This document shows, piece after piece, positions 1 through 20,081 of a stretch of DNA of 43,207 nt. The notes below the pieces were generated by a model. It did no database searches. It was not told the DNA's origin and saw only the letters and a program-made list of their open reading frames with translations. The stretch covers positions 1 to 43,207 of the forward strand of contig SVSK01000014.1 in assembly GCA_015064345.1 (NCBI GenBank), in the 5' to 3' direction. The stretch comes from Oscillospiraceae bacterium (GTDB taxonomy: Bacteria > Bacillota > Clostridia > Oscillospirales > CAG-272). Each line of letters opens with the position of its first letter. The stretch's first letter is position 1. The translations under genes and the position numbers were made by a program.

Positions 1-712
1 TAAGACCGTAAATGTCGTATGCCTTGATGCCCAGCTTCTGTTCGATATCGCGGCGCATCTCTTCTGTCCAGGCTTCCGCACCGAAGATACCTGCCTTCAG
101 CTTGATCTGATCTCTGATTCCCTTTTCGTAAATGGATTCAGCAAGATAAGCCGCGTAGGAAGGTGTGCAGCAGAGGATAGTCGCCTCAAGGTCAGTCATA
201 AACTGAAGCTGACGCTCTGTATTACCGGAGGACATGGGGAGTGTGAGGCAGCCAACCTTATGTGAGCCGCCGTTGAGTCCGGGACCGCCTGTGAACAGAC
301 CGTAACCGTAGCACACCTGCACAACGTCATCCTTTGTTCCGCCTACCGCCATGATCGCACGGGCACAGCAGTCTTCCCAAAGCTCGATATCTTCCTGTGT
401 GTAGAACGCAACAACACGCTTACCGGTCGTGCCGCTGGTGGACTGGATTCTCACGCAGTCGGACAGGGGCGCTGACATAAGTCCGTAAGGATATGCCTCG
501 CGGAGGTCATCTTTTGTAAGGAAAGGCAGCTTCCAAAGGTCGTCAACAGACTTAATATCCCCTACAAGGACGCCGCGGTCGATCATTTTCTTTCTATAGT
601 ATGCATTGTTGTCCCATACATGCTGCAGGGTCTTGAGCAAGCGTTCGTTTTGCCATGCTCTGATCTGCTCAGGTGAGGCGGTTTCTATTTCCTTTTGATA
701 ATAGTTTGCCAT
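1..712 (-). CDS. paaK: Phenylacetate-CoA ligase, C-terminus cut by window edge
   Basis: Adenylate-forming enzyme that activates phenylacetate (or a related aryl acid) to its CoA thioester using ATP. About 237 N-terminal codons are visible on the minus strand and the frame runs off position 1. The translation begins MANYYQKEIETAS and contains the AMP-binding P-loop IQSTSGTTGK and the DIYGL segment typical of PaaK-type ligases; DCVR and YGYGLFTGG stretches also fit. The ATG at 712 is preceded by a GAAAGGA ribosome site at suitable spacing and by a near-consensus promoter at 772-800. It is divergent from the TerB cassette. In gut anaerobes such genes often serve indolepyruvate or aryl-acid metabolism, but no partner gene is visible here. 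The family call is firm; the substrate is not. Confidence 0.93.
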   Translation of the reverse strand, partial: MANYYQKEIETASPEQIRAWQNERLLKTLQHVWDNNAYYRKKMIDRGVLVGDIKSVDDLWKLPFLTKDDLREAYPYGLMSAPLSDCVRIQSTSGTTGKRVVAFYTQEDIELWEDCCARAIMAVGGTKDDVVQVCYGYGLFTGGPGLNGGSHKVGCLTLPMSSGNTERQLQFMTDLEATILCCTPSYAAYLAESIYEKGIRDQIKLKAGIFGAEAWTEEMRRDIEQKLGIKAYDIYGL

Positions 713-771
713 AAGATATGTTTCCTTTCGGTTTGGCTTCCGGATTGAGAATGTAAGATTTTTGCACTAAT

Positions 772-800
772 ATTTTATCACGTTAAAACGTATATGTCAA
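772..800 (-). promoter_or_regulatory. Promoter of phenylacetate-CoA ligase
   Basis: On the minus strand TTGACA (795-800) is followed after 17 bases by TAAAAT (772-777), about 60 bases upstream of the ATG at 712. This is a near-perfect housekeeping sigma promoter. Confidence 0.8.
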
Positions 801-916
801 GGTATATATACAACAATCTCGACTTTTTCGCTGTTTTTATGCATAAAACGCGCATATTTTGTCTCTGCAGAACATCCGCGAAATACACAAGAATAATATT
901 TAGTGATCCGAAATTA

Positions 917-945
917 TTGACATAAGAAAAATTATGTGATATAAT
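917..945 (+). promoter_or_regulatory. Promoter of the TerB-ATPase-helicase cassette
   Basis: TTGACA at 917-922, a 17-base spacer, then TATAAT at 940-945: consensus on both hexamers. The -10 box overlaps the ATG at 944 of the longest possible reading frame, which argues that translation starts downstream at 992. The 713-991 gap holds this promoter and the divergent one for the ligase; nothing else is seen. Confidence 0.88.
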
Positions 946-991
946 GATGTATTCAAAACATTTGTTTGTTTTTCGGGAAAGGAGGGCGGAT

Positions 992-2941
992 ATGGCAGAG
1001 AAAAAGCCTGAGGCGATCATCGCAGAGCTTGGAATGAAGATAGCTCGCTTGTCGGGAAAGATCTTCGGCGCAACCGAGGAAGAAGCGGCAAAGCTGAAAG
1101 AAGAGATCGCACAGTTGTCGGCAGAAATGCGCAGAGAGGCACAGGAAGCGGCAAGAGCAGCAGTCAGCCAAGTGAAAAAGCACGCAGACACGGACGGCTT
1201 CTGGGATCTTGGTGAGCCGAAGCCGAGGATGTACAAGAAGCCCGACTTTGACGGCCACACCATCGACACCACGGTTGTCCACAGTGAGAACGAATATGAC
1301 GGCACAAAAGCTGCGTCTGCCGAAAAAATACCCCCTCGGTCAGCATATGTGGGAAGAAACACCGAGAGACGCACAACGACCGCTTCTTACCGAAGAAATA
1401 TGCCGCAAGTGGGAAATTATGCCCGATTCAGCGGCAATAGTAGCAAAATCGAGAGCAAAACCGTATGTGAATACTCCCCCGGCGGCACTCTTATCAACCA
1501 TATAGCAGTACGCACATGGGAAAGCGGGAGCGAGTTTTACGGACGGTTTACCAAGGACGCGCTGACCAGTCACAAGTCAGTTTGCCGCACCGATCCCGAC
1601 TCGGATATGCCCCCCGTACCCTTTACATCATATGTACCCCAGTACGCTCACATGAGCAGCAAGCAAATGGAGTATTACCGCTGGGTGAGAGAAAACATCC
1701 GCCGAGGACGCTTCCCCGACTGTGACCTTGGGTACATTCAGCTTTACATTTACGAGATATTCAACCTGCCTGACGTTATCTCCCCCGAAAACGGCGCGAA
1801 GATAATCGGCAATATCTGGCTATCATACAGAGGCAGGCATCCCCGCCTTGACGGATACCTATGCGAGTGGTTTGCGGACTACTGCATGATAAACAAGTGT
1901 TCTCCGCCTCAGGAGCTTCAATCCATTTTCCATGAGATCACGCCAAAGGCACAGTTCAAAGAGTTTTATCTTGACCCCATAGTTACCCGTGCACTGAACA
2001 GCGGAGACAGCGATTCCGTAGTCTCCCTCGGCAAGACGGTCATTGAGGTGTCCTCCGATTACGACTACACCTCATCCCGATACTACAGCGATAACCGCGA
2101 AATTTTCGAGCACCATATACCCACCGCGGTTGGTCGCGCCATATGTGCCGCCATCAGTGCTAAAGAATCGCCTTTCTCCCTGGAGCGAGTTTATAAGATG
2201 ACCCGAGACAGCTTCTGCGGTGCAATAATATCGTCAGCAGTAAAAAAGCGAGTGGATATTGAGTTTTCCTCGTTCACCCGCCGCGCAGACGTAAGAGAAG
2301 CCCTCACCCTCATTGCAAAGTACAGCGAAAACAAGGTGCGCGTAATGCTGGGTATTAAGTCGAAGCTGCGTGTTGAGGGTCTCTCCAAGGTTGCCGAGGG
2401 TGCAATTGACGAGTATTTCCGTCCCCATCTGCCCACCGTCACAACGGTTGACAAGGAAGACAGATACATGCCTGCGGATTACCTGAAGCTTTACGAATCC
2501 GAGGACAGCGGCTTTGATTTCTCGAAGGCTGAGGAAATAGAGCGTCAGTCCTGGGTGAATACCGAGCGTCTCACAGGCGAAGAATACGTAGAAAAGGAAG
2601 CGGAATACTCCCCCGATGTTGAAGTTGTGCTGGACGGCGAGATCACGGACACCGACGCTTTTGATACACCGGAGGAAATCATCTCCGAACCGGCTGACGC
2701 GGTAAGTGTCACAGACAAAGCAGATGACAGCGTAATAAAAGACGGGCTGGCTGCCGCAATAGGTGGTCACTTCCGTGAATACTGTCGCGAGAACTCCCTG
2801 TACGAAGGAGAGGCGGCAGACAGAATAAACACGCTGTTTATAGATATTATTGGAGATATCGTCCTTGAGGACACAGGGGCAGGATATCAGATCATTGAAG
2901 ACTATCGAGAGGAGATCGAAGATTGGTTACAAATGCAGTAA
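992..2941 (+). CDS. TerB-N/TerB-C domain protein of a predicted three-gene cassette
   Basis: 649 residues. The N-terminus (about 5-65) is highly charged and heptad-like, a probable coiled coil, followed by a low-complexity linker. Residues about 165-330 fit the TerB-N domain, with the hallmark WVRENIRRG (231-239) and LGYIQLYIYEIFNL (246-259). The last 60 residues fit the end of TerB-C (ADRINTLFIDIIGD). TerB-N/TerB-C proteins have been linked by comparative genomics to tellurite-type stress and phage-defence modules with ATPases and helicases. The biochemical role is unknown; it may be a scaffold or sensor. Start 992 is chosen because of AAAGGAGGG just upstream and because the promoter -10 overlaps the alternative ATG at 944. 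It overlaps the next gene by 19 bases. Confidence is good for the domains and low for function. Confidence 0.8.
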   Translation: MAEKKPEAIIAELGMKIARLSGKIFGATEEEAAKLKEEIAQLSAEMRREAQEAARAAVSQVKKHADTDGFWDLGEPKPRMYKKPDFDGHTIDTTVVHSENEYDGTKAASAEKIPPRSAYVGRNTERRTTTASYRRNMPQVGNYARFSGNSSKIESKTVCEYSPGGTLINHIAVRTWESGSEFYGRFTKDALTSHKSVCRTDPDSDMPPVPFTSYVPQYAHMSSKQMEYYRWVRENIRRGRFPDCDLGYIQLYIYEIFNLPDVISPENGAKIIGNIWLSYRGRHPRLDGYLCEWFADYCMINKCSPPQELQSIFHEITPKAQFKEFYLDPIVTRALNSGDSDSVVSLGKTVIEVSSDYDYTSSRYYSDNREIFEHHIPTAVGRAICAAISAKESPFSLERVYKMTRDSFCGAIISSAVKKRVDIEFSSFTRRADVREALTLIAKYSENKVRVMLGIKSKLRVEGLSKVAEGAIDEYFRPHLPTVTTVDKEDRYMPADYLKLYESEDSGFDFSKAEEIERQSWVNTERLTGEEYVEKEAEYSPDVEVVLDGEITDTDAFDTPEEIISEPADAVSVTDKADDSVIKDGLAAAIGGHFREYCRENSLYEGEAADRINTLFIDIIGDIVLEDTGAGYQIIEDYREEIEDWLQMQ

Positions 2942-4290
2942 ATAAAGTACCGAGAAGAATACTCGGCACACTTCTTTCCTCACTTTCGGGCGGTGTTGTG
3001 CCCAGAGTCGGTGCGCCTTACATCGCAATCGGCAGAAATGACGAGATAGAAGCGCTGACAAATTCCCTTGACCGTGTTGCAGACGGTGAGGGCTCCACCA
3101 AATTCATAATAGGCCGCTACGGCTCGGGTAAAAGCTTTCTTATACAGCTCTCCCGCGGATATGCCCTTGACCGTGGCTTTGTCACCGCGGACTGCGACCT
3201 CTCACCTGAGCGCAAGCTGACGGGCTCGGGCATGTACGGACTTGCCACATTCCGCGAGCTTATGAAGAATATCGCAGTCAAGTCCTCCCCCGACGGCGGT
3301 GCTCTTCCCGTAATTCTCGGCAAGTGGTTCACGGGCATCGGCGCAGTTCTTACCGAAGAAGGCTACAGCCGTGACAGCTCGGAGTACGATTCAGAGTTCG
3401 GCCGTCGCATTATGAAAAGTCTTCGTGAGCTTGAAGGAGACGTTGGCGGCTTTGACTTTGCCTCCGTGCTTCGTGAATATTACATCGCTTGGAGAAACGA
3501 CGACGACTTAAAGCAGTCTGCCTGTCTCAAGTGGTTCCGCGGTGAATACAACACCCGCACAGAAGCAAGAGGAGCAACGGGAATCCGTTCAATATCCATC
3601 ATCAACGACGACAACTGGTACGACTACCTCAAGCTGTTCACTGCGTTCGTGCGCCTTGTCGGATACAGCGGACTTTGCGTGTACATTGACGAGTGCGTGA
3701 ACCTTTACAAGATACCCAACCGCATTTCCCGCGAGAACAACTACGAGAAGATACTCGCCATGTTCAACGATACAATGCAGGGACGCGCTCCCGGGCTTAT
3801 GATCGTTTTCGGCGGCACACCACAGTTCCTCGAGGACAGCAGACGCGGTCTTTTCAGCTATGAGGCACTTCGAAGCCGACTTGCTGACTGCCGTTTCGGT
3901 GGTGGGGAGCTTCGTTCCCTGATGCAGCCCGTGCTCCGACTGAAGCGACTCTCCGACAGCGAGCTTCTCGCCCTTGTCATCCGTTTGGCTTCACTTCATG
4001 GGGAATATCACAAGTGGGACGTACGCATAACGGAAGAAAATATGCGTGATTTCCTCTCCGTTTCTCTCTCACGTGAGGGAGCGGACTCAATGATAACACC
4101 GCGAGAGATCATCCGCGATTTTGTCACAGTCCTCGACTTGCTTCTCACAAACCCCGACAAGTCGTTTGCGGAAATTGTGGGCACGGTTGAGCGCAGCACA
4201 GTATCATCCTCTGTAGATGAAGCTTTAGAGGAAGAAAAAAAGTCCACCGTACAAAAGCCGAAGATAACGCTGGACGATATACAGTTTTGA
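2923..4290 (+). CDS. BrxD-like (DUF2791) P-loop ATPase
   Basis: 455 residues from a TTG start at 2923; AGAGGAGA lies about 8 bases upstream and no ATG fits. It overlaps the end of the TerB gene, so translation is probably coupled. Walker A is GRYGSGKS (64-71), Walker B is LCVYIDE (251-257), and FGGTPQFLED (about 296-305) resembles the sensor-1 segment of this ATPase group. The arrangement matches the DUF2791/BrxD family, the ATPase paired with the Lhr-like helicase BrxHI in type 2 BREX systems. It would be a cytoplasmic ATPase, probably remodelling DNA or protein together with the flanking gene products. No PglZ, PglX, BrxC or PglW gene is present in the window, so this is not a standard BREX locus. 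The family call is strong; partnership is inferred from gene order. Confidence 0.82.
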   Translation: MVTNAVNKVPRRILGTLLSSLSGGVVPRVGAPYIAIGRNDEIEALTNSLDRVADGEGSTKFIIGRYGSGKSFLIQLSRGYALDRGFVTADCDLSPERKLTGSGMYGLATFRELMKNIAVKSSPDGGALPVILGKWFTGIGAVLTEEGYSRDSSEYDSEFGRRIMKSLRELEGDVGGFDFASVLREYYIAWRNDDDLKQSACLKWFRGEYNTRTEARGATGIRSISIINDDNWYDYLKLFTAFVRLVGYSGLCVYIDECVNLYKIPNRISRENNYEKILAMFNDTMQGRAPGLMIVFGGTPQFLEDSRRGLFSYEALRSRLADCRFGGGELRSLMQPVLRLKRLSDSELLALVIRLASLHGEYHKWDVRITEENMRDFLSVSLSREGADSMITPREIIRDFVTVLDLLLTNPDKSFAEIVGTVERSTVSSSVDEALEEEKKSTVQKPKITLDDIQF

Positions 4291-4353
4291 TGATGTTTCG
4301 TTGTCCGTCGAATAAAGTTAAGTTGACTACATCATCACAATCTGTGCTTTAGT

Positions 4354-4420
4354 CTCCTCATCCGTCAGACTTCGTCTGCCACCTTCTCCAACGCATTTAT
4401 TCTAAATGCTGGAGAAGGCT
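4354..4420. repeat. Dispersed palindromic repeat, family A copy 1
   Basis: Begins CTCCTCATCCGTCAGACTT, then CACCTTCTCC, then an internal insert, then GGAGAAGGC. Copies lie at 25096-25159 and, inverted, at 25351-25393. It sits in the 286-base gap between the ATPase and helicase genes. The rest of that gap (4421-4576) contains a GGGACTG/CAGTCC hairpin (about 4468-4507) and no reading frame I can support. Confidence 0.75.
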
Positions 4421-4576
4421 TTGTAAGATCCCACCGAACCCGCTGACGAAAAAACGAATTTCCCGTAGGGACTGGTTACGCAACTATGTTGCGTTGCTCG
4501 ACAGTCCGTCGTGAAAGATGGGATTTCGTTCCGTTCGACTCGTTCCATATTCAAAACACAACATTAAGGTGCTATT

Positions 4577-6784
4577 ATGTCTGTTTTTGATTCATACTCA
4601 CCGTTCATAAGAGAATACATCTACAGTCACGGATGGGAAGCGCTCAGCCCCGTGCAGGTTGCCGCCGCCGAGATCATCTTCGGTTCAGACTCCAACCTCC
4701 TGCTCCCCTCCCAGACTGCCTCGGGCAAAACGGAAGCCGCGTTCTTCCCTATTCTGTCGGAATTTTACGAGGATATGCCCGAGTCCTTTGGCGCGCTCTA
4801 TATTGCTCCGCTCAAGTCTCTTATCAATGACCAGTTCGGCCGCATATCCGAGCTGTGCGACGAAACAGGCATTCCCGTTTACCATTGGCACGGAGACGTG
4901 GCGCAATCACACAAATCAAAAGCGCTGAACACTCCCCGAGGTATTCTTCAGATAACCCCCGAATCACTTGAAGCCATGCTCATTAACCGATCCTCCGACC
5001 TTATCCGCCTGTTCGGGGATCTGCGGTACATCGTCATCGACGAGATCCACACTCTCACCGGAAGCGACAGAGGAAATCAGATAATCTGTCAGCTTGCAAG
5101 ACTCAGACAGAAGACGGGAGTATCTCCACGCCGCATCGGTCTCTCTGCAACTATAGGCGACATGGAAACAGCGGCAGAATGGCTCGGTTCAGGTAGCGGT
5201 CGCGATACAGCAGTTGCCGCGATTCCTCCGTCAAAGGTTCACTGGAAGCTGGGCATGGAGCATTTTTACATCGTCGACAAGGACGTAGCCACCGCAGTTA
5301 CTCCCGAAGGCAACCGTCGCGAGGAAACTATGCATCTGGACCCAGGCTACGAATATATTTACGAATCAACTATCGGCAAGAAAGCAATCGTTTTCTCCAA
5401 CTCCCGCGAGGAGACAGAGTACATCTGCGCCACACTTCGCGAGATAGCCGACTACAGAGGTGAAGCAGACCGATTCCTCATCCACCACGGATTCCTCTCC
5501 GCCGCCATACGAGAAGAGGCAGAGATGAAAATGAAGGATGACGACATCAGCGCTGTTGCATGTGCCACGGTTACAATGGAGCTGGGCATCGACATCGGCA
5601 AGCTCGAGCGCATCATTCAGCAGGGCTCGCCCAATTCCGTTTCATCATTTCTGCAGAGACTTGGACGAAGCGGCAGACGGGGAGATCCACCGGAGATGAT
5701 GATGGTGTTCCGCGAGGAAAATCCCCTCCCCAACACTCCCCTGCCCGACCTTATGCCGTGGGAGCTGCTCAAGGCTATTGCAATCGTTCAGCTCTACATT
5801 GAAGAGCGATTCATCGAGCCGCCGCTTATGCGAAAATGCCCGTTCTCCCTCCTGTTCCAGCAGACTTTGTCCACAGTTGCCTCAAGCGGTGCGCTGACTG
5901 CCAAGGCTCTTGCGGAGAAGATTCTCTCCCTGCCCCCATTCAGATATATCGAGGAAGAGGACTACAAGACCCTGCTTCTCTCCATGATAAACAACGACTG
6001 GCTTGAGATGACCGACGAGCGCGAGCTTATCGTAGGTCTCCGCGGTGAGAAGCTGGTCAACTCGTTCAAGTTCTACGCTGTGTTCAAGGACAGCGAGGAC
6101 TTCACCGTGCGCTGTGAGTCCGACGAGATCGGCGTTATCACCACTCCGCCTCCTGTAGGTGACAGATTCGCCCTGGCAGGTCGCGTTTGGGAGGTTGAAG
6201 AGCTTGACATACCGCGGCATCTCATCTACGTTAAGCCGGTAGCAGGCAAAATGGAAATCAGCTGGCCCGGTGACTATGGTGAAGTCCACACAAGAATACT
6301 TGAGCGAATGAGACAAGTGCTCCGCGAGGATACCGAATATCCATATCTCCGCGAGGGTGCGCTTGAACGACTCCGCGTTGCCCGTGCCGTTGCGAGAAAC
6401 ACGGGGTTGACAGAGAGCTGTATTCTACCTCTCGGCGGATACACATGGGCGCTGTTCCCTTGGCTCGGCACTCGCAGTTTCCGCACTCTACGCCGATATC
6501 TTGTGCGTAACGCAGGCAGATTTAAGCTCACAGGCATGGAGTTCGAGGGTTGCTATTACATGAAATTCAAGCTTGAAGGCGGTAGAGGGGATGCCATGAT
6601 GCGGATGATAGGTGAAAAGATCCGCCGTGAAGGCATTGATCTCGACTCCCTTATCTCCCCCGGCGAATCTCCGGTTTTCGAGAAATATGACGAATTCATC
6701 CCCTCGGAGCTTCTTCGTAAGGCATACAGAGCAGACAAGCTGCGGGCAGACGAGATAATAGGGAGAGTGGATAAGAGAGAATAA
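4577..6784 (+). CDS. Lhr/BrxHI-like SF2 DEAD/DEAH-box helicase
   Basis: 735 residues. Ordered helicase motifs are visible: SPVQ (24-27, Q motif), QTASGKT (46-52, motif I), APLKSL (77-82, Ia), TPESL (127-131, Ib), DEIH (155-158, II), SATIG (190-194, III), ATVTMELGIDIG (330-341, V) and QRLGRSGRRGD (360-370, VI). The long C-terminal half and the RSGRRGD form fit the Lhr-like branch that includes BrxHI of type 2 BREX. It probably translocates on nucleic acid using ATP. It lies 286 bases after the ATPase gene, with repeat family A between them; no strong promoter was found in that gap, so it may be read through from 917. The ATG at 4577 has a modest AAGG site. A stand-alone helicase is possible, but the same gene order is known from BrxD/BrxHI pairs. 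Confidence 0.85.
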   Translation: MSVFDSYSPFIREYIYSHGWEALSPVQVAAAEIIFGSDSNLLLPSQTASGKTEAAFFPILSEFYEDMPESFGALYIAPLKSLINDQFGRISELCDETGIPVYHWHGDVAQSHKSKALNTPRGILQITPESLEAMLINRSSDLIRLFGDLRYIVIDEIHTLTGSDRGNQIICQLARLRQKTGVSPRRIGLSATIGDMETAAEWLGSGSGRDTAVAAIPPSKVHWKLGMEHFYIVDKDVATAVTPEGNRREETMHLDPGYEYIYESTIGKKAIVFSNSREETEYICATLREIADYRGEADRFLIHHGFLSAAIREEAEMKMKDDDISAVACATVTMELGIDIGKLERIIQQGSPNSVSSFLQRLGRSGRRGDPPEMMMVFREENPLPNTPLPDLMPWELLKAIAIVQLYIEERFIEPPLMRKCPFSLLFQQTLSTVASSGALTAKALAEKILSLPPFRYIEEEDYKTLLLSMINNDWLEMTDERELIVGLRGEKLVNSFKFYAVFKDSEDFTVRCESDEIGVITTPPPVGDRFALAGRVWEVEELDIPRHLIYVKPVAGKMEISWPGDYGEVHTRILERMRQVLREDTEYPYLREGALERLRVARAVARNTGLTESCILPLGGYTWALFPWLGTRSFRTLRRYLVRNAGRFKLTGMEFEGCYYMKFKLEGGRGDAMMRMIGEKIRREGIDLDSLISPGESPVFEKYDEFIPSELLRKAYRADKLRADEIIGRVDKRE

Positions 6785-6823
6785 AGAAATATTAGCGAAA
6801 CTCCAACCAAGGCGGCCAAAGTC

Positions 6824-6969
6824 TGTCATCCTGAGTGGAAATTTTGGAAGAACATAAAGAGAACGAAGTTCTCGCGGGTAGGGTTGGCAAAAAGCATGGT
6901 TTTTGATATCATAATATCCTACCCAATCGAAGGATCTCTATTAGATTCTTCGACAGGCTCAGAATGACA
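6824..6969. repeat. MITE-like repeat, family B copy 1
   Basis: About 146 bases bounded by TGTCATCCTGAG and CTCAGAATGACA, i.e. imperfect terminal inverted repeats. Inside are GAACGAAGTTC (a small hairpin) and segments around GGGTAGGGTT and CCTACCCAATCGAAGGATC. In reverse complement it aligns along nearly its whole length with 27061-27221; a shorter copy is at 21967-22036. No transposase is present, so this would be a non-autonomous element. Confidence 0.8.
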
Positions 6970-6994
6970 ATGTGTGGCGGCTGACGGGTGTGCT

Positions 6995-7255
6995 TCACCC
7001 ATACATTGCTTCAAGCAGATATTTTGTTGCAAAACGTACGCCCGCAAAGAAATACTGTTTTCCGCATACGGCAGACAACTCATTTTGAGTGAGATTGTAT
7101 TCTTCAAATATCGGTTTCATGTCCTCGCCCAGAGAATCAAGCAATTTCTCCTCGTATTTCTCAAGGATATCCAAAATCCGTTCATCTTCGCCGCCATGCG
7201 CTAAATGAGTATCGGCAAGAGATGTTGCCCATATTTCTTCAAATATACTGTTCAT
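6995..7255 (-). CDS. Small DUF6809-like protein
   Basis: 86 residues, with no membrane segment. An acidic helical middle (KYEEKLLDSLGEDMK) and a C-terminal FFAGVRFATKYLLEAMYG resemble the DUF6809 family of small clostridial proteins, whose function is unknown. The ATG at 7255 follows a good GGAGG site. It is divergent from the XRE-uvrA genes and shares their 200-base regulatory gap, so it may be controlled by the XRE protein at 7455. The gene is probably real; the family name is tentative. Confidence 0.6.
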   Translation of the reverse strand: MNSIFEEIWATSLADTHLAHGGEDERILDILEKYEEKLLDSLGEDMKPIFEEYNLTQNELSAVCGKQYFFAGVRFATKYLLEAMYG

Positions 7256-7321
7256 ATAACCTCCAAGAGTAATAAGTGTTATTTCGCATTATACCACAAC
7301 AGTTTCAATAATTGCGATTTT

Positions 7322-7402
7322 AGTTCACATCTGGAATAAAAATTTTCGTACGTGTATATTATAGTTCATATATGAACTAAAGTCAATCTTTTTTAGTTCA
7401 TT
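7322..7402. promoter_or_regulatory. XRE operator cluster, perfect 18-base palindrome plus half sites
   Basis: TAGTTCATATATGAACTA (7362-7379) is a perfect palindrome. Further AGTTCA half sites are at 7322-7327 and about 7394-7399. The cluster is AT-rich and lies between the divergent gene at 6995-7255 and the XRE gene starting at 7455. This is the layout expected for autoregulation by that repressor. The assignment of this protein to this site is an inference. Confidence 0.7.
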
Positions 7403-7454
7403 TTTATAGTTTTTTCAAACAACATAATTTCAAACATTAATGGAGCCCGTTTTT

Positions 7455-7673
7455 ATGAAAGATTTGCCAAGGATAAAAGAATTGAGAAAACTCTCAAGCA
7501 AAAGCCAAGAAGAGATCGCCGAGATCATAGGCACAAGTCAGTCCTATTACGCGCAATACGAAAACGGCAAGCGTGATCTGCCATTCTCCCGTGCGATCGC
7601 ACTCGCCGAGTATTACAACGTATCTCTCGACTACATCGCAGGACTGACCGATACACCAAGAAAGATAAAATAA
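7455..7673 (+). CDS. XRE-family HTH regulator
   Basis: 72 residues, nearly all of it a helix-turn-helix domain: [25 protein letters not shown] forms the two recognition helices. It ends with the [12 protein letters not shown] tail usual for short Cro/C1-type repressors. Start 7455 is preferred over the in-frame ATG at 7440 because GGAG (7442-7445) lies 9 bases upstream of 7455, while 7440 has no ribosome site. It sits 16 bases upstream of uvrA and is probably co-transcribed with it. The palindrome at 7362-7379 is its likely target. It is similar in layout to the XRE protein at 41930-42169. Confidence 0.85.
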
Positions 7674-7689
7674 ATCCAAGGAGGCAAAG

Positions 7690-10524
7690 ATGCCTGAAAA
7701 GATAATCGTTCGCGGTGCGCGGATGAACAACCTGAAAAATATTGACGTTGAAGTACCCAGAGACAAGCTTGTGGTATTCACAGGGCTCTCGGGTTCGGGT
7801 AAGTCATCTCTCGCATTCGATACTATATACGCCGAGGGGCACAGACGGTTCGTTGAGTCGCTCTCATCATACGCGAGAATGTTCATCGGACAGCTCGACA
7901 AGCCCGACGTTGACTCCATCGAGGGTCTCTCCCCCGCAATTTCCATAGACCAGAAGACTACCTCAAAGAATCCACGATCAACGGTTGGCACGGTCACGGA
8001 GATATACGACTACCTCCGTCTTCTTTACGCGCGCCTTGGTGTGCCTCACTGCCCTGTTTGCGGACGTGAAATACGCCAGACCACCACGGACGTGATAATC
8101 GACAAGATCATGTCTCTGCCCGAGGGTGAGAGGTTTATGATCCTTTCCCCCGTTGTTCGCGGCAAAAAGGGACGTCAGGAGAAGATCCTCACCGACGCCA
8201 AGAAAAACGGCTACGTTCGAGCAAGAATTGACGGAATAATTTACGATCTTTCCGAGGATATCGAGCTTGACAAGAACCTCCGTCACACCGTTGAGCTGGT
8301 AATCGACCGACTGGTGATGAAGCCCGATCTCCGCGGACGTCTCTCCGACTCTGTGGAATGTGCGCTCCGTGAATCCGGCGGTGCTGTGACTATGGTGACC
8401 GTTCCCCGTGAGGGCGAGGCAAAGGAAGAGGAATTTTCAACCAACTATGCCTGCCCCGAGCACGGAATCAGCTTTGGTGAACTTGAACCGAGAATGTTCT
8501 CTTTCAATAATCCCTTTGGCGCCTGCCCGACATGTACAGGTCTGGGTGTGCTCCGCTCCGTTGACCCGAGAAAGATCATCCCTGACAAATCCCTTTCTCT
8601 TTCCGAGGGTGCTGTGGCGGTAAACGGTTTCAAATCTCTCACCGACGACAGCTGGAACGGCCCGCTTATTCAGTCCGCCATCGAAAGATACGGTGCGGAT
8701 CTGCAAATGCCCATCTGTGACTACCCCAAAGCGGCGTTTGATGTGCTGATGTACGGCTCTCCCGAGCTATTCACGGTAACACGCCACTTCGGCACTCGCT
8801 CACAGACGCAAACCGTCACCTTCGACGGACTGCTGAAGATAATCGAAAACCGCGCACAGCCCGGCTCATGGGACCACGAATATTACGAGCAGTTCCTCAC
8901 AGACCGCGAGTGTCCCGACTGCCACGGCGCAAAGCTGAACAAGGATGCGCTGGCGGTAACGGTTGGCGGGAAGAATATACACCAGTTCTGCTCAATGTCG
9001 GTAGCGGAATCTCTTGAGTTCACAAATTCTCTCGAGTTTTCCGAAACTGAGATGCAAATTGCCCGCGAGATCATAAAAGAGCTGAAGAGCCGACTGGGAT
9101 TCCTCGTATCTGTCGGGCTTGACTATCTGTCTCTTGCGAGAAAATCCTCAACTCTCTCGGGCGGTGAGGCACAGAGAATACGTCTTGCCACACAGATCGG
9201 CTCATCTCTCGCAGGAGTGCTGTATATCCTGGACGAGCCGTCCATTGGTCTGCACCAGCGTGACAACAGCAAGCTCATCGCAACGCTGAAGAATCTTCGC
9301 GACCTCGGCAACTCCGTAATCGTGGTGGAGCACGACGAAGAGACCATGCAGGAGGCGGACTACATCATTGACATAGGACCTCTCGCAGGCATCCACGGCG
9401 GTGAAGTCGTAGCCTCGGGAACACCAGACGAGGTAGCGGCAAACACCGACTCTATCACAGGCGACTTCCTCTCCGGCAGACGAAAAATTGAGGTTCCTAA
9501 AGTTCGCCGAGCAGGAAACGGAAACAAGCTGACCATCGTGGGGGCGAGAGAGAACAATCTGAAGAATATTAACGTGGATATCCCTCTCGGATGCCTTGTG
9601 GCTGTCACAGGCGTGTCGGGATCGGGTAAGTCATCACTTATTAACTCGATTCTCTACCGTTCTCTTGCGGCAAAGCTCAATCGCGCCATCACATTCCCCG
9701 GGGATCACGACAGAATCGACGGTGTAGAACATCTTGACAAGATCATCGCCATCGACCAGTCCCCCATCGGACGCACACCGCGCTCCAACCCTGCAACGTA
9801 CACGGGGCTGTTCACCGACATCCGCAATCTGTTCGCCTCCACTCCCGGAGCAAAGATGCGCGGTTATCAGAGCGGTCGATTCTCCTTCAACGTAAAGGGC
9901 GGTCGCTGTGAGGCTTGTGAAGGGGATGGCGTAAAGAAGATCGAGATGCATTTCCTCCCTGATGTGTACGTCACCTGCGACGTGTGCCACGGAAAGCGTT
10001 ACAACAGAGAGACGCTTGAGGTAAAATACAAGGACAAGAACATCTCCGACGTGCTTGAGATGACAGTTGACGAGGGCGTTGACTTCTTCTGCGACATTCC
10101 GAGAATTGCAAACCGACTGAAGCTGCTGCAGAAAGTGGGACTTGGATACATCAAGATCGGGCAGTCATCCACCACGCTCTCCGGCGGTGAGGCACAGCGA
10201 GTCAAGCTGGCTACGGAGCTGTCAAAACGCTCAACCGGACGCACCCTGTACGTGCTTGACGAGCCTACCACGGGGCTACACTCCGCGGACGTTGAAAAGC
10301 TTATCACCATTCTTCAGACTCTGGTTGAGGGAGGCAACTCCTGCGTGGTAATCGAGCACAATCTCGACGTGATAAAGTGCGCCGATCACATAATTGACAT
10401 GGGTCCCGAGGGTGGACACGGCGGCGGCACAGTCATCGCAGAGGGTACACCCGAAGAGGTTGCCGAGGTAGAAGCATCCCACACGGGAAGATACCTCAGA
10501 GGAAAAATAAAAGGTAATAAATAA
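7690..10524 (+). CDS. uvrA: Excinuclease ABC subunit A
   Basis: Damage-recognition ATPase of nucleotide excision repair; it loads UvrB at bulky lesions. 944 residues, the usual length. It has two ABC modules: Walker A GLSGSGKS (32-39) and GVSGSGKS (about 640), with signature motifs [12 protein letters not shown] and [12 protein letters not shown]. Zinc-binding cysteines are present: CPVCG near 120, a CPEHG/CPTC set near 255-280, and CEAC..CDVC near 740-768. Its start has AAGGAGGCAAAG upstream. Unusually it follows an XRE regulator by 16 bases and has no uvrB or uvrC beside it. A terminator follows at 10539-10575. Confidence 0.98.
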
Positions 10525-10594: not shown

Positions 10595-10921
10595 TCACTT
10601 GATTTCTTCGCGCTCGTTTCCTCTGACTATTTCGATTTTTATATCGTTGATATATTTATCATTGCAGTAATGTTTAACATCTTTCAAAGTTTCAACAAAT
10701 TTGATTCCGTAGTCACCGAATTTCCTTTCAATAACATCAAATCCCAAGATCTCAATATGCATAGAGTCTCCCATCATATCAGTTATACAATCCCAAAAGG
10801 CATCCAAATTGCAACCGTAATAATCGGGAAAGTCAAGTGCTTTCTTGATTATTAGATGCATTTCAATATAATGCTGAACATCGGTAAAATCTATCGTGTA
10901 TTTGTCTTTGTATTTGTACAT
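10595..10921 (-). CDS. Barstar-like inhibitor protein, copy 2 of tandem pair
   Basis: 108 residues of the barstar (ribonuclease inhibitor) family. The core YYGCNLDAFWDCITDMM matches the family pattern YYG-NLDALWDCLT, which forms the barnase-binding helix. Classical barstar blocks a secreted ribonuclease by covering its active site; the partner here is unknown. It is nearly identical to the gene at 10937-11263 (342-base offset), differing mainly near residues 14-30 and at the C-terminus. Both run on the minus strand 15 bases apart. No barnase-type nuclease is seen anywhere in the window, so these are orphan immunity genes or regulators of a host enzyme. Confidence 0.85.
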   Translation of the reverse strand: MYKYKDKYTIDFTDVQHYIEMHLIIKKALDFPDYYGCNLDAFWDCITDMMGDSMHIEILGFDVIERKFGDYGIKFVETLKDVKHYCNDKYINDIKIEIVRGNEREEIK

Positions 10922-10936
10922 GTTAGCTCCTTAACG

Positions 10937-11263
10937 TCACTTGATCTCCGTGCGCTCGTTTCCTCTGACGATTTCGATTTTTATATCGTTGATATATTTG
11001 TCATTGCAGTAATGTTTAACATCTTTCAAAGTTTCAACAAATTTGATTCCGTAGTCACCGAATTTCCTTTCAATAACATCAAATCCCAAGATCTCAATAT
11101 GCATAGAGTCTCCCATCATATCAGTTATACAATCCCAAAAGGCATCCAAATTGCAACCGTAATAATCGGGAAAGTCAAGCGCTTCTTTGATTATGAGATG
11201 CATTTCTCTGTAGTATGTAATGTTCGTAAAATCTATCGTATATTTGTCTTTGTATTCGTACAT
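10937..11263 (-). CDS. Barstar-like inhibitor protein, copy 1 of tandem pair
   Basis: 108 residues and the first gene of the pair in transcription order. It has the same family core as its neighbour (YYGCNLDAFWDCITDMM) and the same acidic C-terminal region. A GGAGAAGC ribosome site precedes the ATG at 11263. Most of the gene is identical to copy 2 at the DNA level, which implies a recent duplication. Upstream (11264-11350) is an AT-rich stretch that may hold the promoter, though I see no clear consensus. The prophage-type terminator at 11354-11394 isolates it from the tail operon, so it is probably not a phage structural gene. Confidence 0.85.
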   Translation of the reverse strand: MYEYKDKYTIDFTNITYYREMHLIIKEALDFPDYYGCNLDAFWDCITDMMGDSMHIEILGFDVIERKFGDYGIKFVETLKDVKHYCNDKYINDIKIEIVRGNERTEIK

Positions 11264-11406: not shown

Positions 11407-12429
11407 TTACCCCACGCTGAACAGTGAAGTGGTAGGTGTCGGTACTCCGTCCTTGCCGATGTAGACCGCCGCAGCCTGGTGTGGCTTTCCGTCAACGCAA
11501 ACGAAAACGTTGCAAAGTGCGGCATTGCAGGTCTCACCAACGGACCAGTAAGTGATACTTGTGCTGCTCACTACGCCGACTCGGTAAACGACCGTCAATG
11601 CGTCCTCGGGCAGGATGTCCGTGTAAACATTATTCCGGCCTTGGTAGATACGGCTGAACTCCTCGCCGTTGACAGAACGCTGCAGCTCGTAATACACACC
11701 CTTGTGCTTGCTGTCGTACAGTCTCGACCATCTGATCTCACCGCTACCGCCAGCACGGATGCCGCCATAGGACAAGCCGTGAGGGGCGTAAGGGCTGCCG
11801 TCTCCTACAACCTGAAACACAGGTGAGGAATATTTGTAAATGCCAACGTAGCCCTCTGCACCTGCCCTGTACGCGCCAAAGTATATGTCAAACTGGACCT
11901 TGTCCCAGTAATTATAACTGCTGTTGAGGGTTTGAGTGAAGCTTCCGCTTGAGCCTGAGCCGATATCATGGTTTCCTATGTACCAAGTCTGTCTTTCTTC
12001 ACTCCAAATATGTGCCACCGCACCGATAATGCTCACTGTATGACCGACGAGGCTATTGCAATCGTAAGTGATCTTGTATCGGTCGTAATGTCGGAAGCCT
12101 TCTATGCTCACGCTAGCCTTTGGGGTGGGATCACTTGCACCGCCCGCCCAGGTGAGAACTTTTGTCTCACCGTTGCCAAGCGTGAGGATCACAGACTTAA
12201 CACCCTCATCATATGGGAAGCTCGCTTTTCTCGTCCTGAACGGAGAGCTTGAGATATCACGTTCTTCACCGTTGTAAGAGAGGTAGACCTCTACTCCTTC
12301 CTCGGGCAGCTTTATATACTTCTCAGGGCTCACTGTCACGTACAGCCTCTCCCCGTCAGTCTCGATCTCAATGTCGGCAAGATATTTTTCAACGTAATAT
12401 CTGCCCGTGTTTGTATATAACAGCTTCAT
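11407..12429 (-). CDS. Phage tail appendage protein with fibronectin-like domain
   Basis: 340 residues and the last gene of the structural operon. The C-terminal half (about 213-305) reads as a fibronectin type III-like domain: PHGLSYGGIRAGGSGEIRWS, YELQRSVNGEEFSRIYQG and YRVGVVSS. The N-terminal half is rich in beta strands, glycine and serine. Such proteins decorate siphovirus tails or form receptor-binding fibres. An AAGGAGGTG ribosome site precedes the ATG at 12429, 12 bases after the upstream gene. The exact homologue is not recognised; the tail-fibre role follows from position and composition. Confidence 0.7.
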   Translation of the reverse strand: MKLLYTNTGRYYVEKYLADIEIETDGERLYVTVSPEKYIKLPEEGVEVYLSYNGEERDISSSPFRTRKASFPYDEGVKSVILTLGNGETKVLTWAGGASDPTPKASVSIEGFRHYDRYKITYDCNSLVGHTVSIIGAVAHIWSEERQTWYIGNHDIGSGSSGSFTQTLNSSYNYWDKVQFDIYFGAYRAGAEGYVGIYKYSSPVFQVVGDGSPYAPHGLSYGGIRAGGSGEIRWSRLYDSKHKGVYYELQRSVNGEEFSRIYQGRNNVYTDILPEDALTVVYRVGVVSSTSITYWSVGETCNAALCNVFVCVDGKPHQAAAVYIGKDGVPTPTTSLFSVG

Positions 12430-12441
12430 TTGTCCACCTCC

Positions 12442-13128
12442 TTAAGTGAGGAGAATGAACAAGTCACCGTCTGTCATAAAGTCGGGCAAAGTAGTGCCGT
12501 AGCCGATGTTTCGAACGACTGACATACCGCTGCCGTCAGACTTCGCACGCATATCTCCGTTCATTACACCGCCGCTTGTCTTCAGATACTCATCAGGTGA
12601 GAGTCCGCCAAGCTTTGCGGCATTTTGAGCGTTTTCCACCGTGGAAAGAGCATCCACTGTGCTTGTTACATACACTCGCTTGTCCGATATCATCTTGTCG
12701 CTTATGGCGGTTGCATTCGTGGGAATACTTACGGTAGCAAGGAGCAGCTCCTTTATATATTCCGAATCTTCAGGTGCTTCTGTGCCGTACTTTGCCACAA
12801 GACTGAACTCGCCGGCAAGTGTGTCAAGTCTCAATACGATACTGTATGCGCCGCTGCCCGCAAGAGTCATGGAAGTGTCGGCATTTCGCCATGCCATGTA
12901 GCCTCTGCACCAGGCAATACCGCCGCTTACCCATACAGCCATTCCTCCCGCGGGAGTTACCTTAAAGCTTTCCTCGCCCCACACACCGTCAGCGTAGAAG
13001 CAGGAGATCATCTTTGCAAAAAACGCAGAATCCACCGCCTTGTTGCCTCTCGGATATCCGTCTGTCGTTTCAACGATCTCGGTAGAATCAAACATCCCAC
13101 CCTCGATCAGTGTTTTTATTTCAGCCAT
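12442..13128 (-). CDS. Phage baseplate/tail-fibre N-terminal protein
   Basis: 228 residues. The opening TLIEGGMFDSTEIVETTDGYPRGNKAVD and the segment FYADGVWGEESFKVTPAGGMAVWVSGG are typical of clostridial prophage proteins that link the baseplate to the receptor-binding tip. The C-terminus ends in a small collagen-free tip (SVVRNIGYGTTLP). The start has AGGAGG eight bases upstream. It lies between the Gp37-like gene and the terminal fibre gene, as in siphovirus tail modules. The role is inferred from order and from the recognisable N-terminal segment. Confidence 0.7.
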   Translation of the reverse strand: MAEIKTLIEGGMFDSTEIVETTDGYPRGNKAVDSAFFAKMISCFYADGVWGEESFKVTPAGGMAVWVSGGIAWCRGYMAWRNADTSMTLAGSGAYSIVLRLDTLAGEFSLVAKYGTEAPEDSEYIKELLLATVSIPTNATAISDKMISDKRVYVTSTVDALSTVENAQNAAKLGGLSPDEYLKTSGGVMNGDMRAKSDGSGMSVVRNIGYGTTLPDFMTDGDLFILLT

Positions 13129-13140
13129 TGTTTCCTCCTG

Positions 13141-14193
13141 TTATTGTAGTTTTAATTGATTTTTCAGCTTGCCTATGTAGTCGCGCTCCTCGCCAAACAG
13201 AGGGAACACCGTTACACTGCCGTTTTCCCAGACCGTGTCAACACCGCTCACCCTGAGTTCAAATGAGAGTCCCGTTTCCGAGTCAGCCACATCGCAAATG
13301 TCGCCGAGAGCATAGTCTGCGCCGTACCTTGGAAGCGCGGTGACGTCACACTCTGCACTGACTGACAAGCTTTTTTTATACTTCGAGAGTACCGATCTTC
13401 CCCGCGCCGCAAGTGCTTCCTGATACAGCTCCGCAGTCAAATAAGCCGTAGGTGCGATATCCTTCGCGCTGTAGTACATCTCCCGTATCCTTATACCCTC
13501 GCTTTGGTCAACCGTGACAACAGTTCCGTCTTTACCCTCAACGTAAACAAAGTTCTTCATGCCGCCGGACTCCGTTTCAATATCAATGGAGCTGACGTTT
13601 TCAAAGGAGGAAGAAAAGATCGCAGGCTCAATTCCTGTTTCAAGGGAGCTCTCGACCGTTCTGTTCTTGCCGTTTACCACACGAAACACAGGCTTGCCAC
13701 TCTCCGGGTCAAGCTTTACTGTAAACGACGCGCCAAAGGGTCTGAGGATGGAGTATAACCATTCCGCGAGGTCATCCCAATCGTACATAACAGTTGTGTC
13801 TCCGCCCACAGATTCTGATTCACCGATAATGAAATCAAAATCCCTCATGTTTCTCTCTACAACGTAGGCTACGATCTCATCGATGTTTCCGCAAAGAGTT
13901 TCGCTGCCGTAGATGACTCTGTCGGAGAGTAGCGACTCAAGCATCCTGCCGCCTATTTCGCAGTCTCCGTCCTCTCCCGTGATGATGTAGTCGATCCTGC
14001 CGCACTTTATCTCTCCCTCAGCCGCGGAAGTGGAAACGTAGACCGCCTCCAAGACCTCGGGCAGGTGTACCCTTGGAAAATGCAAGGTGAACGTACCCAC
14101 TTCAAAATATCGCTCGCTCCACACAACGGAGGTGAAAAAATCCACAGGTCCGCTTATGTGAGAGAAGTTCTCATCCAGAAAATACAGTTCCAT
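13141..14193 (-). CDS. ReqiPepy6 Gp37-like tail protein
   Basis: 350 residues, matching the siphovirus Gp37-like family in length and pattern: MELYFLDENF start, VWSERYFEVGTFTLHFP, GDCEIGGRMLESLLSDRVI and the DYALGDICDV end segment. These proteins form part of the baseplate hub (Tal-type) after Dit. In this family the hub often carries no enzymatic domain, and none is visible here. A GAGGTGAGCT ribosome site precedes 14193, 8 bases after the Dit stop. A conventional siphovirus would place the tape-measure gene upstream of Dit, and that gene is absent. Confidence 0.82.
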   Translation of the reverse strand: MELYFLDENFSHISGPVDFFTSVVWSERYFEVGTFTLHFPRVHLPEVLEAVYVSTSAAEGEIKCGRIDYIITGEDGDCEIGGRMLESLLSDRVIYGSETLCGNIDEIVAYVVERNMRDFDFIIGESESVGGDTTVMYDWDDLAEWLYSILRPFGASFTVKLDPESGKPVFRVVNGKNRTVESSLETGIEPAIFSSSFENVSSIDIETESGGMKNFVYVEGKDGTVVTVDQSEGIRIREMYYSAKDIAPTAYLTAELYQEALAARGRSVLSKYKKSLSVSAECDVTALPRYGADYALGDICDVADSETGLSFELRVSGVDTVWENGSVTVFPLFGEERDYIGKLKNQLKLQ

Positions 14194-14201
14194 AGCTCAC
14201 C

Positions 14202-15059
14202 TCACACACCGTAGTACAGGGGCGAATATTCAAGACAGGCATCAATATATTCTCCACCTGAGTCCGCCCTGATGCTGACTGTTGATTCGCCTCTCGGCAG
14301 GGTGAAAAATACGCTGTCACGGGTAAACTTGAAGCATCTCTCGCCGCCCAGGGTGATGTTCTTTCTGCCACGCCTTGTGTCAATGGCCAGCACATCCCCG
14401 TCAGATAGCGTCAAGAGGCATTTAACCTGCTTTTCTCCAAGGCTGACCGAAGGATTTGATACGCTTCCACCGTGTGCCACGATCGTTAGCACAAATCCGC
14501 AATCCGTATCTCCGCCATTGTCAACCTCCTTACGGTCAGTCTTGCCGTACAGTCCCGCGGTAACACCCAATTCGGGCGTAAAATTCATCGGAAATGTGAG
14601 AAGCGGCATCGCACGGCAGAAATCCGCTTTCTTTTTTGCACCGTCGCTGAAGAATACCGCAGGGGAAACGAAATTGAGAGTCATCACAACAGGTCCGCTC
14701 GGCACAGGTCTCTCGAAAAGAGGTATACCGCATGGGATAACGGATATTCTTCTGTGCACGCCGAACAGACTGACATCAAGCACTCCCTCATACTTGGGGT
14801 CGAGCATTGATACTATTCTGCGTTTTTCTTCTTCCCCGGTTGCCGAGTCGATCTCTGCAGTAATCGACAGCTCCCTCTCGCCAAAGCGTCTGACTGAGGG
14901 ATACCCTCCATTAAGCGAGGCATACGGCGTGATCTTAACGTCAAATCCCGTAGAGTCAAAACCGCGGAGTCCCCCTGCAAGTAGCTTCACTGAGCTGTCC
15001 GGAGAAATCCGCAGTACCTTGCCGCATGCCTCGTAGGTAATAATATAATCCTCTGTCAT
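14202..15059 (-). CDS. Distal tail (Dit-like) protein
   Basis: 285 residues. The N-terminal half reads as the phage tail family fold: GFDVKITPYASLNGGYPSVRRFGERELSI and the later FVSPAVFF turn into a galectin-like C-terminal half. Dit forms the ring joining tube and baseplate. The start ATG at 15059 overlaps the stop of the 48-residue gene upstream (TAATG), which suggests coupled translation. It is followed by the Gp37-like gene, the usual order. The family call is good. Confidence 0.78.
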   Translation of the reverse strand: MTEDYIITYEACGKVLRISPDSSVKLLAGGLRGFDSTGFDVKITPYASLNGGYPSVRRFGERELSITAEIDSATGEEEKRRIVSMLDPKYEGVLDVSLFGVHRRISVIPCGIPLFERPVPSGPVVMTLNFVSPAVFFSDGAKKKADFCRAMPLLTFPMNFTPELGVTAGLYGKTDRKEVDNGGDTDCGFVLTIVAHGGSVSNPSVSLGEKQVKCLLTLSDGDVLAIDTRRGRKNITLGGERCFKFTRDSVFFTLPRGESTVSIRADSGGEYIDACLEYSPLYYGV

Positions 15060-15205
15060 TATCTGAACAACGCCTCGCTTTCTCGCTTTTTACGCTTTGC
15101 ATCACGGTAGTAGGACACCGTCTTTACTCGCACACTTTCCTTTCGCTTCTCTGTCGGTTGCTCTGCTCCGTAATACTTATTCTTTTTGTTATCTATATTA
15201 GTCAT
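15059..15205 (-). CDS. Small basic protein in tail operon
   Basis: 48 residues, rich in Lys/Arg (NKKNKYYG, EQPTEKRKES, RDAKRKKRES). The start at 15205 is chosen because its ATG overlaps the TGA of the upstream gene (ATGA) and the next gene starts on its stop. The position between the chaperone-like gene and Dit matches where the second tail-assembly chaperone and the tape-measure gene normally lie. It may be a remnant of either, or a minimal tail protein. No family is recognised. Confidence 0.6.
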   Translation of the reverse strand: MTNIDNKKNKYYGAEQPTEKRKESVRVKTVSYYRDAKRKKRESEALFR

Positions 15206-15519
15206 ACCCGCGCCGCCAATTCCTCTCTCATGCGTGAGTAAGCGTCGATCTCTGCACACAGAAATCCAATGAAGCTGATATATGCCGAAATATGCTTCTC
15301 CGCATTGTCTCCTTCACCGCAAATAGCCGTACCCTCACCATCGCCGAACAAGCTGTCGAAAAACACTCGGATAACGTCACAAAGTGATGCGCTGCCGATA
15401 GTCCCACAGCGAAGCGCATGGCTCAATTCTGCTATCCCGCGGCTGACAGAAAGAAAACAGCTCTCGCACATTATGTTTAGTGGGTAGCATCTCCCCATAT
15501 ATTCCCATTTCTTATTCAT
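15202..15519 (-). CDS. Possible tail-assembly chaperone
   Basis: 105 residues from ATG 15519 (AGGAGG 8 bases upstream; the TTG at 15525 is too close to it). The protein begins MNKKWEYMGRCYPLNIMCESC and is mostly alpha-helical with several cysteines. It directly follows the tail-tube gene, the usual place for the G-type tail-assembly chaperone, and ends in an ATGA overlap with a small gene where the frameshifted GT partner would be. I do not recognise the family by sequence; the chaperone call is positional. Confidence 0.5.
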   Translation of the reverse strand: MNKKWEYMGRCYPLNIMCESCFLSVSRGIAELSHALRCGTIGSASLCDVIRVFFDSLFGDGEGTAICGEGDNAEKHISAYISFIGFLCAEIDAYSRMREELAARV

Positions 15520-15540
15520 TCCCAATTCCTCCTATGAAAA

Positions 15541-16398
15541 TTATTCCTTGGGGACAAAAATTCCCGTGGACATAACAAATCTGCCGTCCCGTCCGTCACC
15601 TCGCGTGAGAAGCTTGCCGACAACAGTAAGCAAACCGCGCTCCTTGGAGAAGGATGATGGCAGAACCTCATACTCTCGGAGCACAGCAACAGGTGCACCC
15701 GGATAGTTTTTGTCCTCCCCGCACAAAACAGTCAGAATTTCCACTGCAGAATCCTCCCACAAAGGAAGCGCCTCGGATATTTCGCGCAGTCTCACAGCCG
15801 CAGCCGCCTCAGAAGCACGCCTGATCTCATAGCTGATTTCGCTTGAGAGCTCGGAAACGTCTGAGCGAGTCATATTCTCGTGGAAATAGCGGCGACTGAA
15901 TATCTCGCCGACTGTTTTCTCGTCAAACAGGAAGAAACCATCTCCCACAATACTCCACACAGGGCTTTCCTTACTGCCTGTGTTTATGTAATAGAGGTAT
16001 GCACTCTCTCCGTCTGAATGCTCGCAAATAAGGGAATATGCGGCTCTGTATTCAGCCATGCCGTTCTTCTCGCTTCTCACCTGCTTTATGCCGTGTGTAG
16101 GAACTATATATCCTCTTACACCGTCTGACCTGACATCACGGGCAGCAAAGTATTCTTCGATCTTTGAGAGACATCTTATCGCCGCGCCACGCTCTCCCGC
16201 AGTTTCACCGCATCTCACCGCCAGCTCAAAGCCGACAGATTGGCAAAACGTCTCGCGCTTCACCTCTCCCGTGAGGAATACTGCCCCACATCCGTCGCGC
16301 CACACCTCGGGCATGAACGGTGTCATATCAGCATCACGAAGAAGCGCGCAAATAATCTCGGGTATAGTTTTTTCTTCCATAGTCAATTCCATAGTCAC
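15541..16398 (-). CDS. Probable fusion of tail terminator (minor capsid) and tail tube protein
   Basis: 285 residues. Residues about 5-125 resemble the phage minor capsid/tail terminator group: a helix IPEIICALLRDA, then beta strands and a second helix around CLSKIEEYFA. From about 130 the pattern changes to that of major tail tube proteins: YLYYINTGSKESPVWSIVGDG, the conserved opening of tube subunits, then AVEILTVLCGEDKNYPGAPVAVLREYEVLP and a final strand. These are normally two genes. No frameshift is visible at the junction. The GTG at 16398 or the ATG at 16392 may start it; both fit the AGGAAAGG site. The call is inference from segment patterns. Confidence 0.6.
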   Translation of the reverse strand: MTMELTMEEKTIPEIICALLRDADMTPFMPEVWRDGCGAVFLTGEVKRETFCQSVGFELAVRCGETAGERGAAIRCLSKIEEYFAARDVRSDGVRGYIVPTHGIKQVRSEKNGMAEYRAAYSLICEHSDGESAYLYYINTGSKESPVWSIVGDGFFLFDEKTVGEIFSRRYFHENMTRSDVSELSSEISYEIRRASEAAAAVRLREISEALPLWEDSAVEILTVLCGEDKNYPGAPVAVLREYEVLPSSFSKERGLLTVVGKLLTRGDGRDGRFVMSTGIFVPKE

Positions 16399-16408
16399 CG
16401 CACCTTTC

Positions 16409-16756: not shown

Positions 16757-16765
16757 CCTATCACC

Positions 16766-17050: not shown

Positions 17051-17068
17051 CTCATCCACCCAAAGGGC

Positions 17069-18163: not shown

Positions 18164-18259
18164 TTTCTTTACCTATCCTTTCTTTTTTCCATGACGGAGC
18201 GGCCTACCGAGGCTCATTTCATACGCTAACACGTCCGTTTCCTCATGCCGCTCACTTTG

Positions 18260-20066: not shown

Positions 20067-20081
20067 ATTTCCTCCCTAAAA

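Follow-up and report, generated by a model that had tools for sequence, protein, structure and literature searches.

The window analysed here is the whole 43,207-nt stretch of contig SVSK01000014.1 from an Oscillospiraceae bacterium (assembly GCA_015064345.1, 79% complete). All coordinates refer to it. By its sequence, the locus at 992 to 6784 is an intact Shango (SngABC) system. It is likely that this is a vertically inherited Shango of a family of gut Clostridia and that, as we infer, its three proteins act jointly as a DNA-surveillance machine. Shango is near-core in this family, and its genes are retained jointly even when they are unlinked. The locus contains the following features.

917 to 945, plus strand: sigma-70-type promoter, TTGACA-17-TATAAT with TG before the -10 element; 12/12 consensus, also found in four of five aligned relatives.
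992 to 2941, plus strand: sngA, a TerB_N/TerB_C protein of 649 residues; PADLOC SngA 1.6e-42 over residues 156-646 of 649, TerB_N 7.1e-13, TerB_C 3.6e-4 (below cut-off).
2923 to 4290, plus strand: sngB, a BrxC/BrxD-type AAA+ P-loop ATPase of 455 residues with a TTG start; PF10923 7.8e-144, PADLOC SngB 3.5e-154, Walker A/B residues kept.
4291 to 4576, plus strand: gap between sngB and sngC with pieces of genome-dispersed repeats; 14 further matches of 31-53 bases, 84-94% identical.
4577 to 6784, plus strand: sngC, a superfamily 2 (SF2) helicase of 735 residues related to BrxHI, Lhr and MrfA/YprA; PADLOC SngC 2e-240, DEAD 7e-28, Helicase_C 4.9e-15, WH_Lhr 6.6e-5 (below cut-off), motifs kept.

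All three genes are intact and co-directional. The start of sngA is placed at 992 by a ribosome-binding site read from the sequence; the mechanical open reading frame (ORF) start is 944. The genes sngA and sngB overlap by 19 bases. The gene sngC is only loosely coupled to sngB, with the 286-base repeat-bearing gap between them. The promoter is the sole 12/12 site found in a scan of 700-7700, a region where 19 promoter-like sites were counted and shuffles gave an expectation of 6.5. The same promoter lies upstream of sngA in L079, L081, L082 and L084, and it was not found in the L080 stretch. The first-pass annotation had described three co-directional genes, the first two overlapping, behind a consensus promoter, and its coordinates were exact.

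The best PADLOC-DB matches of the three proteins were the SngA, SngB and SngC models, in that order along the locus. The runners-up were BrxD (1.8e-47) for SngB and BrxHI (1.5e-120) for SngC. The Shango models thus beat those of BREX (bacteriophage exclusion) by a wide margin, which identifies the triad as Shango and not as a new system. With Pfam, SngB matched BrxC_BrxD (PF10923) at 480 bits, and SngC matched DEAD at 97.9 bits and Helicase_C at 56.2 bits. SngA matched TerB_N at 49.2 bits (cut-off 25), and its TerB_C match of 21.2 bits was below threshold (cut-off 26.3). 

The first-pass annotation had treated the system as one of no known identity, which no longer stands. According to the available text of PMC10250203, the Shango of Pseudomonas aeruginosa PA14 consists of three proteins: one TerB-like, one ATPase and one DEAD/DEAH helicase. 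The paper gives 10-100-fold plating effects on many, not all, of the phages tested and strong protection in liquid. Anti-phage activity is also reported there for an Escherichia coli version.

The window's SngB and SngC contain the Walker A/B and helicase motifs. The catalytic residues of Walker A/B and of helicase motifs I, II and VI are conserved at 97-100% in 44 rows (families f1, f6, f16 and f17). No nuclease domain was recognised by Pfam or PADLOC in SngA, SngB or SngC. The nearest solved relatives of SngC are YprA (MrfA; PDB 6znp, 2.5e-29) and Lhr-type helicases, which have roles in repair. SngA has three parts in its predicted structure (m9fb9c815f8f6).

1007 to 1171, plus strand: N-terminal helical hairpin, residues 6-60, absent from many SngA rows (alignment A3); the long linker after it is modelled with low confidence.
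1454 to 2431, plus strand: core, residues 155-480, made up largely of helices plus two beta pairs; TerB_N lies within it.
2714 to 2938, plus strand: C-terminal TerB_C domain, residues 575-649, winged-helix-like.

None of the PDB chains compared with the core model matched it clearly. Alignment A3 displays every second row, under names that are not matched to positions on the SngB tree. In it, the SngA rows most like that of the window do not contain a short beta insert (Y-x-C ... W) found in other rows. Many of these rows carry a variable N-terminal extension.

Co-occurrence was scored across 394 genomes of the order. The threshold was 1e-10 for SngA and 1e-100 for SngC. For SngB, 87 of 90 matching genomes were kept; the weak matches of G105, G162 and G317 (E-values of 1.5e-10 or worse) were dropped. 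The counted matches include some with internal stops (SngB of G072, SngA of G369, and SngC of G215 and G485). SngA was present in 86 genomes, SngB in 87 and SngC in 87. All three were present in 83 genomes and any of them in 90. SngB and SngC occurred together in 85, with two single occurrences of each. These counts bear out the idea that the three genes form a self-contained module and recur together.

Most of the 83 complete sets (62) have the genes as neighbours within 3 kb. In 17, sngC lies elsewhere; in 3, sngA lies elsewhere; and in 1, all are apart. In two of the 17 (G140 and G215), a contig starts at sngA or sngB; the separation there may therefore come from assembly, and both were left out of a set of 16 split genomes. 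Across these 16, the pairwise distances of SngA, SngB and SngC correlate at 0.89-0.94. Five genomes of family f20 (G116, G270, G284, G296 and G368) contain a tandem pair of SngC genes, beside sngB by coordinates, which is possibly a four-gene Shango variant. In G441 there are three SngC matches, of which two form a tandem.

The family of the window was sampled with 185 genomes, all but the window's own requested at 90% completeness or more. SngB was present in 138 of the 185, covering 47 of 58 genera, and SngC in 140. Both were present in 136 and neither in 43. The available text of a 2026 review (PMC12926258) places Shango among systems of 0.2-8.6% prevalence with an unknown mechanism, and the family's share stands in contrast to that range. 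All seven genomes of the window's genus carry SngB. Family f17 carries it in 12 of 22 genomes. Genus g13 had no SngB or SngC match in the family searches, and SngA was not found in the two of its genomes that were searched.

The genes sngB and sngC lie within 6 kb of each other in 100 of the 136 family genomes that contain both. In the other 36, they are more than 6 kb apart or on separate contigs. No gene lies within 2.5 kb of a contig start in 25 of these 36 (contig starts were checked, ends were not). Where sngAB has no adjacent sngC, the next gene was for housekeeping or transport in 6/6 loci scanned. The genes alaS, rny and Sua5-CoaE are found 3' of sngAB in some relatives. Genes that are retained together though unlinked argue that the three proteins are needed together.

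A FastTree tree of SngB was built from 79 of the 87 SngB genomes. Of the 26 rows from the window's family, 23 fall into a single supported clade. Families f17 (12/12 rows) and f6 (3/3) form single groups beside this clade. The other half of the tree mixes many families, with f16 (6/6), f7 (4/4) and f10 (5/5) still forming single groups. GyrB, recovered from 59 of 60 genomes, served as the control.

In the window's lineage, SngB and GyrB distances correlate with an r of 0.62 (23 family members) or 0.71 (27, with f6 and f17 rows added). SngB was at least as similar as GyrB in 0/95 cross-family pairs. A second set contained 29 genomes of other families and three stray members of the window's family. 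It had 193/444 such pairs, for example 0.90 for SngB against 0.62 for GyrB. In this set, r was 0.50 for 28 genomes and -0.02 for a hand-chosen subset of 18, about one per genus; the unthinned second clade thus also correlates with GyrB. SngB tracks GyrB in the first set, and the pair counts differ between the sets; this places the window's copy in a resident lineage that is passed on vertically. The second lineage has been transferred between families.

The gene order 3' of the locus is in line with vertical inheritance. The next long gene downstream of the window's sngC is uvrA. It is the next ORF of at least 100 residues behind sngC in the window, in L079 to L084 and in L057. L079 to L084 are the six closest named relatives. 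They are Oscillospiraceae, Clostridia and Ruminococcus metagenome-assembled genomes, including some from goat colon and buffalo cecum. L123 has a uvrA-like ORF on the other side.

SngB and SngC are under strong selection. Against L079 to L084, the nonsynonymous divergence (dN; Nei-Gojobori method, NG86) was 0.08-0.17 for SngB and 0.06-0.11 for SngC. The synonymous divergence (dS) was 1.1-2.4 where computable; for SngB it was 1.1-2.3 or saturated. SngA diverges fast in both lineages. Its dN against the same relatives was 0.32-0.49. Mean identities within 23 resident genomes were 0.30 for SngA, 0.63 for SngB, 0.65 for SngC and 0.71 for GyrB. Within 28 genomes of the second set, they were 0.29, 0.62, 0.57 and 0.64, respectively. 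A fast SngA beside a slow SngB and SngC suggests that SngA is the part that may meet the phage.

The proposed mechanism is as follows. SngC, as an ATP-driven SF2 helicase, and SngB, as an AAA+ ATPase of the BrxC/BrxD group, would be loaded onto DNA or travel along it. SngA, with its conserved helical core and winged-helix-like C-terminal domain, would be the sensor or adaptor. It may recognise DNA or a protein of the phage, or else a replication intermediate. The machine might then stall or remodel phage DNA replication. Because none of the three proteins shows a recognised nuclease domain, the block is proposed to come from halted replication or a recruited host enzyme and not from cleavage by Shango itself.

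The foremost alternative is that SngABC serves mainly in chromosome maintenance in this family, in repair or replication restart, with defence as a by-product or confined to the mobile lineage. It is the main rival because the prevalence, neighbours and dispersal of the genes resemble those of a near-core function. We judge it unlikely. It would account for the presence of SngB in three quarters of the family, for its agreement with GyrB and for the housekeeping neighbours (uvrA here; in some relatives alaS, rny and Sua5-CoaE after sngAB). The kinship of SngC to YprA (MrfA) and Lhr-type helicases would also fit. Against it, SngA has a mean identity of 30%, compared with 63, 65 and 71% for SngB, SngC and GyrB, as for a conflict protein. 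Genus g13 does without SngB and SngC, and SngA was not found in two of its genomes. A homologous operon also protects against phages, according to the text available of PMC10250203.

The nearest flanks of the relatives also lean toward maintenance, as they give no clear defence signal. PADLOC at 1e-25 was run on 117 of 139 prepared flanking proteins, and each family was matched by only one or two proteins. Among the families listed (25 of 30), these were UvrA/ABC-like mad3 and mad8, GajB-like UvrD, DinG, RTasHel and PD-T4-2_B. On 116 of 182 flanking proteins of the other group, it matched three mad3 and single DpdF, PDC-S01, PsyrT and others. A defence-island setting, raised in the first-pass annotation and frequent for Shango but no defining trait of it, is not supported by these flanks or by the window, where the next long gene is uvrA.

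Several points weigh against a vertically inherited, jointly acting defence Shango. Scattered genes, a prevalence close to core and housekeeping neighbours set the locus apart from a typical mobile defence system, and they fit genome maintenance equally well. Vertical inheritance is read from one marker (GyrB) and one FastTree tree of SngB. The distance correlations of 0.89-0.94 would also be expected from shared descent alone, and 15 of the 16 split genomes retain the linkage of sngA to sngB. In the 185 family genomes, SngC occurs without SngB in four and SngB without SngC in two. The NG86 dS values are near saturation. The rapid divergence of SngA could be relaxed constraint instead of conflict. 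The available text of PMC10952713 lists the Pfam TerB core PF05099 for Shango, and this core was absent from the matches of the window's proteins at E-values up to 1. Phage protection is printed for distant Shango copies only; for the window's operon, it is predicted.

The first-pass annotation had suggested that the TerB protein possibly replaces PglZ-type partners. In the corresponding alternative, the locus would be a reduced BREX of BrxD and BrxHI, with the TerB protein standing in for PglZ, BrxC and the methylase. SngB and SngC are indeed homologous to BrxD and BrxHI. SngC, BrxHI, DruE and DpdJ are also grouped as a potentially distinct helicase clade in the text available of PMC12278908. 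We consider this reading very improbable, and it is disfavoured on three grounds. The PADLOC models of Shango itself fit best. SngB scored 159.3 bits against the NCBIfam BrxD equivalog cut-off of 350. PglZ was not found in the 79%-complete genome of the window; other BREX genes were not searched one by one. PglZ was sought in 80 of 85 Shango-bearing genomes (G205, G215, G220, G284 and G314 were left out). It matched in eight, five of them above its cut-off and the other 75 genomes having none above it. The triad therefore occurs mostly without BREX, as had been suggested.

It is scarcely credible that the locus is a recently acquired defence island travelling with the phage-like genes at 11.4-21.5 kb; the phage structural cluster does start 4.6 kb downstream of sngC and Shango does occur on plasmids elsewhere, but this reading is disfavoured by the uvrA gene that stands between sngC and the cluster and is conserved 3' of sngC in the six closest named relatives, by the agreement of SngB with GyrB and by the lack of any SngB match in 50,697 phage records.

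The cluster itself extends from 11407 to 21461 on the minus strand and is probably part of a prophage. By PHROGs, it encodes head proteins, a minor tail protein, Dit, the major head protein, the portal and the large terminase, of which three were placed as follows.

17069 to 18163, minus strand: major head protein (PHROGs).
18687 to 20066, minus strand: portal (PHROGs).
20082 to 21461, minus strand: large terminase (PHROGs).

Two tandem ORFs of 108 residues, near-identical by eye, lie at 10595-10921 and 10937-11263 on the minus strand. Two long minus-strand ORFs at 29660-31759 (699 residues) and 28008-29048 (346 residues) had no Pfam match at E-values up to 0.01. Directly 3' of sngC, 6795-6990 is an apparent repeat-like stretch; such stretches are common in gut Clostridia. 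A short XRE-like helix-turn-helix ORF, judged by eye, lies between sngC and uvrA at about 7440-7673 on the plus strand.

Mobile copies were found among plasmids. SngC-like proteins were present in 699 of 72,556 plasmid records (E-values up to 1e-40); some of these may be BrxHI, which was not separated. The order sngABC is the same on a Paenibacillus cellulositrophicus plasmid and on a Cetobacterium somerae plasmid, where it lies between a restriction specificity subunit and a recombinase. These plasmids and the printed Shango of Pseudomonas and E. coli contain the same three families as the window. The window's lineage differs from other Shango in being vertical and near-core in its family, with genes that are often apart. 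Its SngA differs as well, the window-like rows having no short beta insert and many having the N-terminal extension.

Other known systems are more distant. BREX type 2 shares the homologues BrxD and BrxHI, and it differs in PglZ and in the BrxD cut-off that SngB does not reach. Lhr and YprA (MrfA) helicases have the SF2 core in common with SngC. The Lhr-type winged helix is weak in SngC and below cut-off, and SngC has 735 residues compared with 1,508 in full-length Lhr (7lhl). SngC also differs from both in fitting its own PADLOC model and in travelling with SngA and SngB. Bunzi and Dionysus each include a TerB-type protein and are likened to Shango here by their description in the available text of PMC10952713 and PMC12926258.

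The identity of the triad is settled, and it need not be pursued as a new system. A resident, near-core and often dispersed Shango like that of this family was not found in the literature searched, a limited library. Tentatively, SngABC could be an old chromosomal DNA-surveillance complex of these Clostridia, near-core and scatterable, with the mobile Shango islands as exported or parallel versions. If this is true, the copies in this family would be signs of a resident function in immunity or genome integrity, not of an accessory island. More broadly, the family prompts one to ask whether defence systems can turn into near-core functions of the cell. With a resident lineage in about three quarters of its genomes, the family is natural material for work on the mechanism of Shango.

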